From Nodosilinea sp. FACHB-141 (GTDB lineage Bacteria; Cyanobacteriota; Cyanobacteriia; Phormidesmidales; Phormidesmidaceae): a stretch of DNA of 64,000 bases. This document shows positions 40,179 through 45,304 of this stretch, piece after piece. The stretch's first letter is position 1. The number at the start of each line of letters is the position of its first letter. The position numbers and the translations under genes were made by a program. The stretch spans positions 1-64,000 of the forward strand of contig NZ_JACJPP010000019.1 of the NCBI RefSeq assembly GCF_014696135.1. The letters are read 5' to 3'. The notes beneath the pieces were generated by a model. The model did no database searches. It was not told the DNA's origin and saw only the letters and a program-made list of their open reading frames with translations.

Positions 40179-40228
40179 ATGGGAGCAAGTGGCGCAGTAA
40201 TCCTGGCCAGGAACAGAGCCGCTCCCAT
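40179..40228. terminator. Nested palindrome between convergent genes
   Basis: Outer arms atgggagc (40179-40186) and gctcccat (40221-40228) enclose a perfect 12-base palindrome tcctggccagga (40201-40212). It fills the gap between the PRC-barrel gene and the pentapeptide gene and may act as a shared terminator. No T-run. Confidence 0.45.
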
Positions 40229-41232
40229 CACTCATGAATACTGCCATCAGGCATAGTAGTTCCGGCCAGCATGACGTTGACTAGGGTGGTGCTGCTAATT
40301 TCAGCCCGCTCTAAAATAGCCTCGCTTAAGTCAGCATCGCTAAGATCGGCTCGACCTAAATATGCTTCAACTAGCAGAGCTTTAGTGAGAATAGAGCGGC
40401 GTAGACTCACACGAGATAGGTCAGAGCGACTAAAGCGAGCGTCGGCCAGATTGCAGTCATCCATCTGGGCTAGAGCCATAGTGGCTTCAGTGAAGTCGAC
40501 CCCTTTGGCGCTGACGCGGTTAAGGTTAGCCTGGCTGAGGTTGCTACGGGGGAAACGGCTCTGGGTAAGATCGGCAGACTCTAAACAGCTTTGGCTAAGG
40601 TCGACATCGCTGAGGTTGGCATTGCACAGCAGCGCCCCCTGCAAATTGGCTCCCTTGAGGTTGGCATCGCGTAGCACCGCCTCGCTGAGATTAGCGCCGC
40701 TGAGGTCAACGTAGGCCAAATCGGCCCCCGAGAGATTGGTGCCCCGTAAATCAGCCAGGTGTAGCTTAGCTCCCCGCAGATTGGTGGCGTACTTGCGGTT
40801 TTCTTGGCGTAGATTAGCTCCACGTAGGCAAGCACCGGTGAGGTTAGCGCCGCTGAGATCAGCGTTGCGCAGGTCAGCTCCGGTGAGATTGGCATCGAGC
40901 AGATCGGCCAGGGTCATATTGGCGCTGCGCAGATCGGCCCCCTGTAGGCTAGCCCCGTGCAGATCAGCATCGCGCAGCATGGCAGCCGACAGATCGGCCT
41001 GGTTGAGGTTAGCTCCCCCCAGGCGCGCCCGCGACAAATTAGCCTGGCGAAAGCGCACCCGCGTTAAAAACGCCAGCATGAGGTTGGCATTCTCGAGATC
41101 TGCCTGCATCATATCGGCCCCAATCAAATCAGCCCCAGCGAGGTCGATGCCCACCAGGGTCTTACCCTTAAAGTCCATATCGCCGCGGGCATAGGCGTCG
41201 AGCAGTTCGCGGGCATTCATATCGAAGACCAA
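40228..41232 (-). CDS. Pentapeptide-repeat protein
   Basis: 334 residues made almost wholly of A(D/N)LXX pentapeptides, folding as a long right-handed quadrilateral beta helix. It begins MVFDMNARELLDAYARGDMDFKG, with MNAREL the likely true start and RELLDAYARGDMDF typical of cyanobacterial members. One interruption (RQENRKYATN) breaks the helix after about residue 140. Pentapeptide proteins can mimic DNA or act as scaffolds; cyanobacteria have many of them with no known role. It begins 5 bases after the cyclase stop, so the two genes form an operon. Confidence 0.9.
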   Translation of the reverse strand: MVFDMNARELLDAYARGDMDFKGKTLVGIDLAGADLIGADMMQADLENANLMLAFLTRVRFRQANLSRARLGGANLNQADLSAAMLRDADLHGASLQGADLRSANMTLADLLDANLTGADLRNADLSGANLTGACLRGANLRQENRKYATNLRGAKLHLADLRGTNLSGADLAYVDLSGANLSEAVLRDANLKGANLQGALLCNANLSDVDLSQSCLESADLTQSRFPRSNLSQANLNRVSAKGVDFTEATMALAQMDDCNLADARFSRSDLSRVSLRRSILTKALLVEAYLGRADLSDADLSEAILERAEISSTTLVNVMLAGTTMPDGSIHE

Positions 41233-41237
41233 GGGGC

Positions 41238-43130
41238 TTAGGCAGAAAATCGGGCGGATACAGGGGCAGCCACAGCGGAACGATCGCCAGCGTTAGACGT
41301 CTCAGAGACAACTTCAAGATGGGGGGTTGGGCTTTGGGCCACTGCCTCTGCCGACTCTAGCAGACCATTGGGGTCTTGGGGATAGTAGGCGCGCATTGCC
41401 TGAGCAATGGCGCTGGCCACCTGCCCCCCGTCGCCGACCCGGCCGAGACAGTGGGCAATAATGGATAGCTTACTGTCTAAGTCAGAGTAGGTGGGACAGT
41501 ATTCGAAGGTTTGCTGCAATAAGTCGTCGAGAGTGCGTCGGCTGAGGCTAGACCAGTCTTGGGTTGTGTAGCCGAAGGGGCCGTGGAGACAGGAGTACAG
41601 CAAAATTTTGGCCCGCAGCGGATTGGCATACTGAACAATCTCGCCCCGCAGGTCGAATAGAGACGAGCGATCGCGCCTCGGGCCTCCTGGCTCAGACCCG
41701 CCACCTATGGGGTTAGAGAGGGTGCCATGGAGAGTGGTCAAATCTGCTGGCTGGTCATAGCCGCCGCTGGACAGGGTGGTATAGGCTTCGGCGATCGGAC
41801 TGGAGGGTCCAGAGGGCTCGGCCAGGACGGTGGCCTCGGCCAAAACCGTTTGTTCTACCAAGGCGGTGGCCTCGGCTAGGGCCTCAGGCTGGGTTTGGTA
41901 GAGGGGCTGGAACCCCACCATGATCTGATTGGCCAAGCGGGTGTACTGCTGGCGTCGGTTGAGATACTTAACAACGCGGCTCAACCGATAGCGCAGGTCT
42001 TGGGGCCTAGGGGCCAGGGTAAGCGTCTGTTGAATTAGCCCCGGCAAATAGGTTTCGCTGAGACGGCTGGGGTCATTTTCCCAGCCACCGTGACAAAGAC
42101 AGTGCAGCAGCTTGCGCAGTCGTAGGGCCTCGGGGCTGCGGTCAAACTGGTCGGCGATGGCCTGGCAGCGCTCCTCTAGAGAACGCGGAGTGAGCTGGGT
42201 GAAAACTTCGGAAGTAGCCTCAGGGTTTTGAAACAGCGATCGCCCGTACCAGGGCTGGAGCTGTTTGACGATGGTTCCGGCAATTTCACTGTAAAGATCT
42301 TGGCGGTTGAGCCCGGCCACTACCCGCTTTAGCTGATCTTCAAATTCAGCCAAGGTCGGGTAGCGATCGCGCAGCGACAGCAGCAGCGATCGGAGGTCAA
42401 ATTGATCTAGCACCGCAGGGTCATTTTCCCAGGCCTGCTGATAGGTAGCAAACACCAGTTTCTTAATGCGCAGGTTATGGGCGTGGGTGCCCAGGTGGCG
42501 CAGGGCATTGTCTAGCAGAGCCTCCGTGGTCATAGGTAGGGTGCAGGTGTGGTCCTCAGATCCTTGGGGGCCAGACTCAGTGTCTTCAGCGTGGAGCGCC
42601 AGCTGGTAGGCAGGTACTGCCTCCTCAATATTCTTGAGTTGCAGAGGGCCTAAAAAGGTAGCGTGAAGATTGAGCCGCGCCTTGACCACATCGTAGATAG
42701 TGCGCGACACGCACAGGCCGCGGGGTTTGGCAAAGGTTTGCAGTCGGGCGGTGATGTTGACCCCATTGCCCATCACATCCTGCTCGCTGACCAGGATATC
42801 GCCGAGGTGCACGCCAATGCGGTGATCGAGATACTGGTTGGGCTCCAAGCCCTCGGCTAGATCGACTAGCCGCCGCTGCATCTCTAACCCACAGGAGACC
42901 GCCTCTACAGCGCTGAGAAAGTAGATTAGCAGACCGTCACCGGTCGATTTGAGCACAGTGCCGCCAAACTCTCGGCAGATATCGCCGATCAGCGTCAGGT
43001 CGCGATCGATCAACCGCAGAGTGCATTCTTCATCGGTTGACATGCGGGTGCTAAAGCCTACCGCATCAGTAATCATGATAGCGGCCAGCAGGCGTTGCCC
43101 CTGGGATAGCGATGACACTCGACGTTCCAT
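41238..43130 (-). CDS. Class III adenylate/guanylate cyclase with three unknown C-terminal modules
   Basis: 630 residues. Cyclase domain about 10-175: metal ligands D22 (ITDAVGFS) and D65 (KSTGDGLL), purine-selecting Lys probably K61, and GNGVNITARL (121-130) with the transition-state Asn and Arg, so it looks active and adenylate-selective. From about 220 a ~78-residue module occurs three times (220-297, 337-413, 505-584), sharing the pattern WENDP...VV..LNR..Y...A..I....QP.Y; the third copy is the most diverged. I do not recognise this module. A Gly/Ser/Ala-rich linker (415-490) precedes copy three. In one run with chlD upstream (131-base gap) and the pentapeptide gene downstream. Confidence 0.88.
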   Translation of the reverse strand: MERRVSSLSQGQRLLAAIMITDAVGFSTRMSTDEECTLRLIDRDLTLIGDICREFGGTVLKSTGDGLLIYFLSAVEAVSCGLEMQRRLVDLAEGLEPNQYLDHRIGVHLGDILVSEQDVMGNGVNITARLQTFAKPRGLCVSRTIYDVVKARLNLHATFLGPLQLKNIEEAVPAYQLALHAEDTESGPQGSEDHTCTLPMTTEALLDNALRHLGTHAHNLRIKKLVFATYQQAWENDPAVLDQFDLRSLLLSLRDRYPTLAEFEDQLKRVVAGLNRQDLYSEIAGTIVKQLQPWYGRSLFQNPEATSEVFTQLTPRSLEERCQAIADQFDRSPEALRLRKLLHCLCHGGWENDPSRLSETYLPGLIQQTLTLAPRPQDLRYRLSRVVKYLNRRQQYTRLANQIMVGFQPLYQTQPEALAEATALVEQTVLAEATVLAEPSGPSSPIAEAYTTLSSGGYDQPADLTTLHGTLSNPIGGGSEPGGPRRDRSSLFDLRGEIVQYANPLRAKILLYSCLHGPFGYTTQDWSSLSRRTLDDLLQQTFEYCPTYSDLDSKLSIIAHCLGRVGDGGQVASAIAQAMRAYYPQDPNGLLESAEAVAQSPTPHLEVVSETSNAGDRSAVAAPVSARFSA

Positions 43131-43261: not shown

Positions 43262-45304
43262 TCACCCAGTCTTCATATCTGCGATCGCCCCTCGGGCCAT
43301 AGAAGCAATGGCTTGATCGGTGGCTTTAGGCAGTTGGTAGTAGCGGCCCCCGGCAGTCTTAGCCAACTCTTTACCAAACCCAGTCGAGACAAACTTGCGC
43401 TCAGTGTCGATAATTAGCAGTTGATAGCCCACTCCACGAATGCGCCCGGCGATCTCCAGCAGCTCCTGCTTGATGTCGGACTTAGGGGCATCGGGCTCAG
43501 GAATGTCGCCCAGGGAGCGCGACAGCGGCACGTTGCCCCGACCATCGGTAATCGCCACAATCACCACGCTGCCCACATCCCCTGATTGCTGGGCGTTGAT
43601 GCCCACCCGCACCGCTTGAGTGAGGCCATGGGCTAACGGCGAGCCGCCGCCGCAGGGCATGCGCTCTAGCCGCCGCCGAGCCATGGCGATCGAGCGGGTA
43701 GGCGGCAGCAGCACCTCTGCCTGCTCGCCCCGAAAGGGGATCAGCGCCACCTGGTCGCGGTTTTGGTAGGCTTCGGTCAGTAGCTCTAGCACCGCCCCCT
43801 TGGCACTCTGCATGCGGTTCAGGGCCATGGAGCCCGAGGCATCGACCACAAAAATAATCAGCGAACCGGCCTTGCGGGCCAATCGCTTGGCGCGAATGTC
43901 CCCCTGCTCAACAATGACTCGGCGACCGGGCTCACGCTCGCGACGAGCCTTTTGGTAGGGGGCAGCAGCCCGCAGGGTGGCATCTACCGCAATGCGGCGC
44001 ACCGGCCCCTGGGGCAAGAAGGGCTTGATATAGCGGCCCCGTTCTTCAGAAAAAATTAGGTTGGCATTGCCCGATTTCCCCTGACGGCCCATGGTTTGGG
44101 CAAACAGCAGCATCGACGGGTCAATGATCACGCCCTCGGGGTCGAAGACAAACTCCTCCGGAATGCTGGGGGGGCTGTCATCCTCGTCGGGGGTATCGTC
44201 CTCTTCGTCTTCCTTGTCTTGATCTTCCGTGTTGTCCTGGGGCTCGTCTTGATCCTGATTGGAGGGCGGCGGTGGCGGCGGTGGCGGCGGCTCTTCGGGC
44301 ATGTCTTGGGGCAGCAGGGAGCGGGGCACAATCACCAGCTCCACCGCCACCCGCAGGTCGTCGGCATTGACCTCGGCGCGCCCCTCTAGGGCGGCGTGGG
44401 CCTTGGCTACTCGCACCGCAAACAGCTCGGCCCGGTGACCCTGAATGCCACCCCGCAGGGCTTCGGTCACCAGGTACTGGATCTGCTCCCGGCTGATGGT
44501 GACCTCTTTGAGCCATTCGCGGGCCAGAATAATCTGGGTTCTGAGGGCATCGATCTCGTCGGCGTAGGCGGCAATCACCGCCTGAGGATCGTTGGCGAAC
44601 TGGGTGGACTGTTCTACCGCGGCCACTCGGTCTTCAAGGGCCATGGCGCTATCGGCTGACAGGGCGATCGCAATGCGATCGAGCAGGTGCTGTCGCAGCG
44701 GCCCGGCCTCTGGGTTGTAGGTGGCGATCAGCAAAGGCTCACAAGGGTGCTGAAAGCTCAGGCCCTCGCGCTCGATCTGGTTGCGGCGGGCGGTGAGGGC
44801 AGCCAGCAGCAGGTTCGCCACCTGGTCATCAAGCAGGTTGATGTCATCGACGTACAGCACACCCCGATTAGAGGCGGCCAGCAGCCCCGGCTGAAACACG
44901 CTTTCCCCCGCCTGGATGGAGCGGGCCACATCCACTGAGCCCAGCAGCCGGTCTTCGGTTACCCCCAGGGGAATTTGCACAAAGGGGGCGGGCACCACGC
45001 GGGTGGGCAGATCAAGATGGTGACTGGAGTCGCTGAAGCGATCGCGGGTTTGGTCATCCCACAGCTGAGGGGCAGCGGGGTCAGCGTTGCAGCAGGAACC
45101 CTCGACTACTTCAATGGGGGGCAACAACTGGTGCAACGCTCGCGCCATGACAGATTTGGCGGTGCCGCGCCGCCCGGCAATCACGACCCCGCCCAGGTTA
45201 GGGTCCACCGCCGCCAGCAGCAGGGCCATTTTGATCGCCCCCTGCTCGACAACCGCCGCCAGGGGAAATACAACCGGAATTGGGGAATCTACTGTGGCCA
45301 TCAT
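43262..45304 (-). CDS. chlD: Magnesium chelatase ATPase subunit D
   Basis: Part of the ChlD-ChlI-ChlH complex that inserts Mg into protoporphyrin IX, the first committed step of chlorophyll synthesis. 680 residues: AAA+ domain with Walker A-like [14 protein letters not shown] (about 44-57), a Pro-rich then acidic linker (about 340-395), and a C-terminal VWA integrin-I domain with [15 protein letters not shown]. The start [18 protein letters not shown] is in line with the family; the second Met could be the real one. Chelation activity needs ChlH and ChlI, encoded elsewhere. Confidence 0.97.

Follow-up and report, generated by a model that had tools for sequence, protein, structure and literature searches.

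What does a nucleotidyl cyclase gene do with a C-terminal module that occurs three times and resembles no named domain? The gene in question lies in a 64,000-nucleotide stretch from the cyanobacterium Nodosilinea sp. FACHB-141 (contig NZ_JACJPP010000019.1, positions 1 to 64,000; hereafter the window). A first-pass annotation, made from the sequence alone, described an apparently active cyclase followed by a triplicated module of about 78 residues, and offered two ideas for the latter: a cyclic-nucleotide-output repeat, or a protein-docking repeat specific to cyanobacteria. The features under discussion are collected in Table 1.

Table 1. Features of the module gene and its two neighbours (window coordinates)
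Feature	Position	Strand	Evidence or remark
CDS, class III cyclase with three helical modules (cyclase-N-N-T), 630 aa	41238..43130	minus	
Class III nucleotidyl cyclase domain, residues 10-180	42591..43103	minus	PF00211, 3mr7, invariant residues
Module copy 1, N-type, residues 200-300	42231..42533	minus	WENDP / VVAGLNR
Module copy 2, N-type, residues 314-416	41883..42191	minus	six-helix bundle in model, pLDDT 93.3
Linker, residues 417-483	41682..41882	minus	varies among orthologs, low model confidence
Module copy 3, T-type, residues 484-590	41361..41681	minus	
Partner CDS, 330-aa HetL-like pentapeptide-repeat protein	40228..41220	minus	PF00805, PDB 3du1
Magnesium chelatase subunit ChlD	43262-45304	minus	TIGR02031, 783.9 bits; directly upstream

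The cyclase domain matches PF00211 with an E-value of 1.1e-6 (28.8 bits against a Pfam cut-off of 21.9). Its closest solved chain is PDB 3mr7 (E 1.4e-26), with which six catalytic residues align identically, and the next-closest solved cyclases are Ma1120 and LipJ. The ortholog set comprises 20 loci, 18 of them complete; L026 (frame break) and L029 (contig end) were left out. Across the 19 aligned sequences, i.e. the window protein and the 18 complete orthologs, D22, K61, D65, D118, N125 and R129 are invariant, in keeping with the active cyclase initially proposed on the basis of these residues except D118. In class III cyclases, two aspartates serve metal binding, a lysine and an aspartate select the base, and an asparagine and an arginine act on the transition state. 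Because the D/K/D/D/N/R pattern is that of adenylate cyclases, cAMP is the likely product. The cyclase tree resolves little of its branching, and the cyclase fusion may have arisen once or more than once. A second protein of the same genome (L002/L165, in the region C7 591301-591936) has a cyclase domain 55-61% identical to that of the window; in the module's place it carries a Ser/Thr kinase domain and a C-terminal segment that, judged by eye, occurs twice.

The repeats themselves are real. Local alignment scores reach 109 for R1/R2 (shuffle maximum 53) and 88 for R2/R3 (shuffle maximum 45), with none of 2000 shuffles as high in either case; the score of 50 for R1/R3 is equalled in 3 of 2000, and a blastp of the protein against itself returned its full-length self match only. 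The 18 complete orthologs each retain the three copies in the same sequence. The triplication therefore stands, whereas the length has to be corrected to about 100 residues, with a start 20-23 residues earlier, because a further N-terminal helix belongs to the module. Likewise, the WENDP / LNR pattern ascribed to all copies holds for the first two, whereas the third has QYxNPLRAKILL...DW instead. For 57 copies from the window and its orthologs, AlphaFold2 predicts a compact six-helix bundle (pLDDT 93.3, pTM 0.84). The full-length model, which is of low confidence beyond the modules (mean pLDDT 57; 56-83 in the third module), gives every copy six helices in identical order, with less certainty for the third. 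Structure prediction, which had been suggested as a check on the repeats, thus gives the copies a common fold, and an ordinary helical linker is ruled out by the predicted bundle (pLDDT 93, pTM 0.84). In the true linker between copies 2 and 3, inspection by eye suggests a short LAE(S/A)T-like tandem repeat, present in varying numbers from one ortholog to another.

Searches with 100 diverse module members against Pfam and NCBIfam yielded single-member matches only (best E 0.0017 and 0.0079); nine Pfam families were each matched by one member. In PHROGs, the same members found no match at E 0.001. A profile search of the PDB retrieved a designed coiled coil only (E 0.0017 over 33 positions), and Foldseek of the module model in the PDB gave no convincing fold (best E 1.6). 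VIA-align in the PDB reached a Z of 4.1 at best; its rows are mostly bromodomains (Z 3.3-3.7), which we take as shared helix packing. In BFVD, Foldseek listed a pox pyrin-domain protein at E 2.8, below significance. Judged from sequence profiles and the predicted model, the module would represent a domain family absent from Pfam, NCBIfam, PHROGs and the PDB, as the first-pass annotation supposed when it knew no fitting name; the fold may or may not be new.

In a sample of 386 cyanobacterial genomes, a first profile built from the three window copies matched 96 at E <= 0.01. A better profile, built from 100 diverse copies, matched 93 genomes in 52 of the 143 genera at E <= 0.001, remnants included, which indicates a missing domain family; four weak matches of the first profile (G132, G201, G276, G285) are not listed at this stricter limit. 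All 93 genomes belong to the window's class, in agreement with the suggested cyanobacterial specificity within a sample that covers the window's phylum only. A tblastn of one two-module protein against plasmids found no match. Most of the 93 genomes contain one to three module matches, as from a single gene; in the window's own genome only the three window copies are significant, the next two matches having E-values of 0.24 and 0.44.

The tree and subtype models distinguish two module types: N (WENDP...LNR/LNK) and T (QYTNPLRAKILL...DW). Out of 87 last copies in the census, 83 form one clade (support 1.0) that contains none of the 117 other copies. The greater divergence noticed earlier in the third copy is thus that of a distinct old subtype with its own clade. 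The four last copies outside this clade are N-type, each the only copy in its protein and with a ComFB domain after it (L075, L086, L087, L102, all family f6; Pfam E 1e-14 to 1e-19); they link the module to cyclic-dinucleotide receptors. A usual module gene encodes one or two N copies and then one T (range one to four copies), and the majority of the proteins retrieved are stand-alone arrays of two or three copies. Apart from ComFB, the module is joined to cyclases (cyclase-NNT in the window family, G170 and G286; cyclase-NNNT in G060) and to Ser/Thr kinases (kinase-NT in L082, L115 and L119, family f12; kinase-NNT in L171 and L172, family f26); in the cyclase and kinase fusions seen, the enzyme is N-terminal to the modules. 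Long C-terminal extensions of L111, L132, L135 and L141 (families f11 and f2) appear by eye to share a further domain; those of L111 and L132 have no match in Pfam.

Apart from the window family, a cyclase is found on only 3 of 102 module ORF rows, remnant pieces included. Of the 93 module genomes, 62 were searched for a cyclase of the window type at E <= 1e-15: 48 have none, and in 10 of the 14 that have one it resides on other proteins only. These numbers rule out a cyclase-specific module and give no support to the idea of a cyclic-nucleotide-output repeat; they also imply that the basic unit works without a cyclase of this type. Nine scanned cyclase proteins lacking the module carry Ser/Thr kinase, NACHT, TIR or NB-ARC domains. 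Among the cyclases related to that of the window, L153, L154, L157, L158, L160 and L170 are fused to NACHT, TIR/AAA_35 or NB-ARC, and these are possibly cyclase-bearing cyanobacterial conflict proteins.

If not the cyclase, what accompanies the module? The first-pass annotation missed the T and N subtypes and the kinase and ComFB fusions, and also the neighbouring gene for a pentapeptide-repeat protein (PRP). On the same strand, the ATG of this gene lies 17 nt past the stop of the module gene (the mechanical ORF starts at a TTG, 41232). The protein matches PF00805 in 8 stretches (E 2.3e-71), with tandem A(D/N)LXX repeats, and PDB 3du1, i.e. HetL, at E 1.5e-32. Against the HetL equivalog NF047416 it scores 210.7 bits, under the cut-off of 260; its 161.5 bits against NF052603 (Alr5209 family; cut-off 125) are a sum over 4 stretches, the model being a repeat of 113 positions and the protein 330 aa long.

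The PRP gene follows the module gene in 18 of the first 20 neighbourhoods, and the first census counted 74 of 86 module genes with a PRP within the next 600 bp. In a fuller census with 17 more regions, 91 genomes have a module ORF, with the PRP downstream in 77, upstream in 3 and neither in 11; together with the window, 78 of 89 intact genomes have the PRP on the same strand no more than 600 bp downstream. Most of the 77 downstream PRPs (64) measure 329-335 aa. The gap ranges from -4 to 498 bp in 74 pairs, which fits co-transcription; a promoter and terminator scan gave results at chance level. The 11 genomes without an adjoining PRP include three module remnants (G022, G159, G235), one with a PRP frame about 1 kb downstream that is broken by an internal TAA (G320), and seven whose PRP is unlinked, elsewhere or on another contig (G056, G076, G089, G093, G143, G179, G247). 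In the 77 loci, chosen for their downstream PRP, gene grouping recovers a PRP-like gene in 76 (one was missed) and in 24 of 24 families; no other neighbour is widely shared, the next clusters reaching 5 families. In G054 (L081) the module gene is flanked by two PRPs (PRP, two ORFs, module gene, PRP), possibly a duplication of the partner. A wider operon was considered as well and rejected: ChlD upstream is common only to two loci of the same family (L064, L065) among the 20 neighbourhoods.

These neighbours also bear on whether the locus might be a Pycsar-like anti-phage cyclase system. PADLOC models of PycC do match the cyclase domain, but weakly (E 6.1e-6 and 0.0041); at E 0.01 no PADLOC model matches the partner PRP, and the gene on the other side encodes ChlD. 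Furthermore, the unit is kept across many families, mostly without any cyclase. We regard membership in such a system as extremely improbable.

Co-occurrence extends the linkage to whole genomes. Since PRPs resemble one another, the PRP profile matches 127 of the 386 genomes at E <= 1e-40, of which 89 were taken to contain orthologs: 86 score at least 310 bits, on the upper side of a chosen score gap, and three genomes of family f2, with 262-272 bits, were included since their PRP gene lies next to the module gene, although unrelated PRPs reach 264. With the first module profile, 88 genomes have both genes, 8 the module only, 1 the PRP only and 289 neither (Fisher p 2e-76, a value that takes no account of shared ancestry). 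The sole PRP-only genome (G089) gains a module with the better profile, under which all 89 PRP genomes hold the module. Conversely, the module occurs without a PRP ortholog only in four genomes, and there in fragmentary form, with in-frame stops in three: 53 positions with a TAA inside in G022, 31 positions in G121, pieces with several stops in G159, and in G235 two pieces of 50 and 40 positions, of which one contains a TGA. The two genes thus decay jointly. Within the genera g16, g23 and g47 the two genes are either both present or both missing, depending on the genome, and in g31 and g18 a single genome carries a module remnant while lacking a PRP ortholog; this variation within genera argues that the pattern does not reflect one deep split.

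Which part of the module array belongs with the PRP is suggested by the subtypes. A T copy is present in all 80 PRP-adjacent module genes of the census, and in five of them, all of family f2, it is the only copy; no PRP adjoins any of the four N-only ComFB proteins. We therefore propose the T copy as the docking part. Another fourteen genes that combine N and T copies lack an adjoining PRP; the kinase- and ComFB-fused paralogs have none either, and their genomes carry the PRP elsewhere.

What linkage and co-occurrence demonstrate is a joint function rather than contact. Inheritance with one PRP, usually encoded next door, nevertheless suggests that the module docks signalling enzymes onto it, and of the two original ideas the protein-docking repeat is the better one. 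We consider it rather probable that the module protein is a dedicated PRP binding partner within a conserved two-gene cyanobacterial unit, to which a cyclase was added in some families. The first gene would provide an array of six-helix modules and the second a HetL-like beta-helix of about 330 aa; the T copy, as the presumed adaptor, would dock on the rigid tower of the PRP, and a further partner may be bound by the N copies, unless these bind one another. In relatives of Nodosilinea, as in two further families, a class III cyclase would have been added at the N-terminus, conferring a putative cAMP output, with cAMP made at the PRP complex or under its control; on paralogs of two other families a Ser/Thr kinase would take the cyclase's place. 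As a broader, tentative reading to which we give somewhat less than even chances, the PRP tower and its T-docked tandem adaptor might constitute a new cyanobacterial scaffold with pluggable cAMP synthesis and Ser/Thr phosphorylation, and with a cyclic-dinucleotide receptor on the N-only paralogs.

The position of the enzymes N-terminal to the modules would also suit a module that senses a ligand or stress and gates the cyclase or kinase to which it is attached, and the PRP linkage would fit a signal and its downstream target. Most module genes, however, have no recognised enzyme to gate, and a T copy alone beside the PRP in five genes is better explained by a binding part than by a gate; this reading is doubtful.

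Slightly less doubtful, yet still unlikely, is that the module is a homotypic adaptor like the effector-associated domains (EADs) or bacterial death-like domains, pairing with copies on other proteins and so gathering signalling enzymes in a conflict or cell-death system, of which the PRP would be a fellow component instead of the docking partner. A bundle of six helices and some 100 residues that is found fused to cyclase, Ser/Thr kinase or ComFB has the right appearance: in multicellular bacteria, alpha-helical EADs are described from systems that also comprise cNMP cyclases and S/T/Y kinases (PMC8195603), and related cyclases in module genomes reside on NACHT, TIR and NB-ARC proteins. Nevertheless, none of the nine single-member Pfam matches is an EAD or death-like family; the copies stand in tandem beside one PRP, with no second gene family widely shared nearby; and one to three module matches in most of the 93 genomes leave no second protein for pairing.

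What is new here is not the cyclase but an unnamed domain family and its near-obligate partnership with a PRP. One PRP lineage thereby gains a partner, as none of the 386 sampled genomes was found to have this PRP without the module. In its minimal form, the single T module of family f2, the partner is small enough for direct testing. In the accessible portions of one library of open-access literature, no description of the module or of the module/PRP pair was found.

With the class III cyclases 3mr7, Ma1120 and LipJ, the window protein shares the catalytic domain and its residues; its module array has no match in any solved chain. ComFB, a receptor of c-di-AMP and c-di-GMP (PMC12313861), lies C-terminal to one N-type module in four paralogs and is absent from the window protein according to Pfam. 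The EADs and bacterial death-like domains are likewise small, helical and non-catalytic, and belong to systems with cyclases and Ser/Thr kinases in multicellular bacteria (PMC8195603), but the module differs from them by its tandem copies of two fixed subtypes, its dedicated adjoining PRP gene and the lack of a Pfam match.

For the partner itself, slr1819 may be the Synechocystis counterpart. The name slr1819 appears in PMC4094844, and a 2021 review calls the biochemical functions of cyanobacterial PRPs almost completely unknown (PMC8145042). A co-occurrence module of a PRP, a Ser/Thr kinase and glutamate-semialdehyde dehydrogenase has been reported, whose PRP may or may not be the present one (PMC5862535); the PRP named in PMC7464499, which has a signal peptide and 8 repeats, is taken as a different protein. 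Kinase-pentapeptide fusions are listed in PMC1262709 and PMC2176072. Among the closest known systems is HetL of Nostoc, which has the same repeat type. HetL measures 237 aa as against 330 aa, and the partner PRP, under the cut-off of the HetL equivalog, occurs in 89 of 386 sampled genomes and in many families, unlike HetL. HetL reportedly works by contacting the protein HetR with faces of its tower (PMC7476756), and docking of a protein would accordingly be a natural role for the partner PRP as well.
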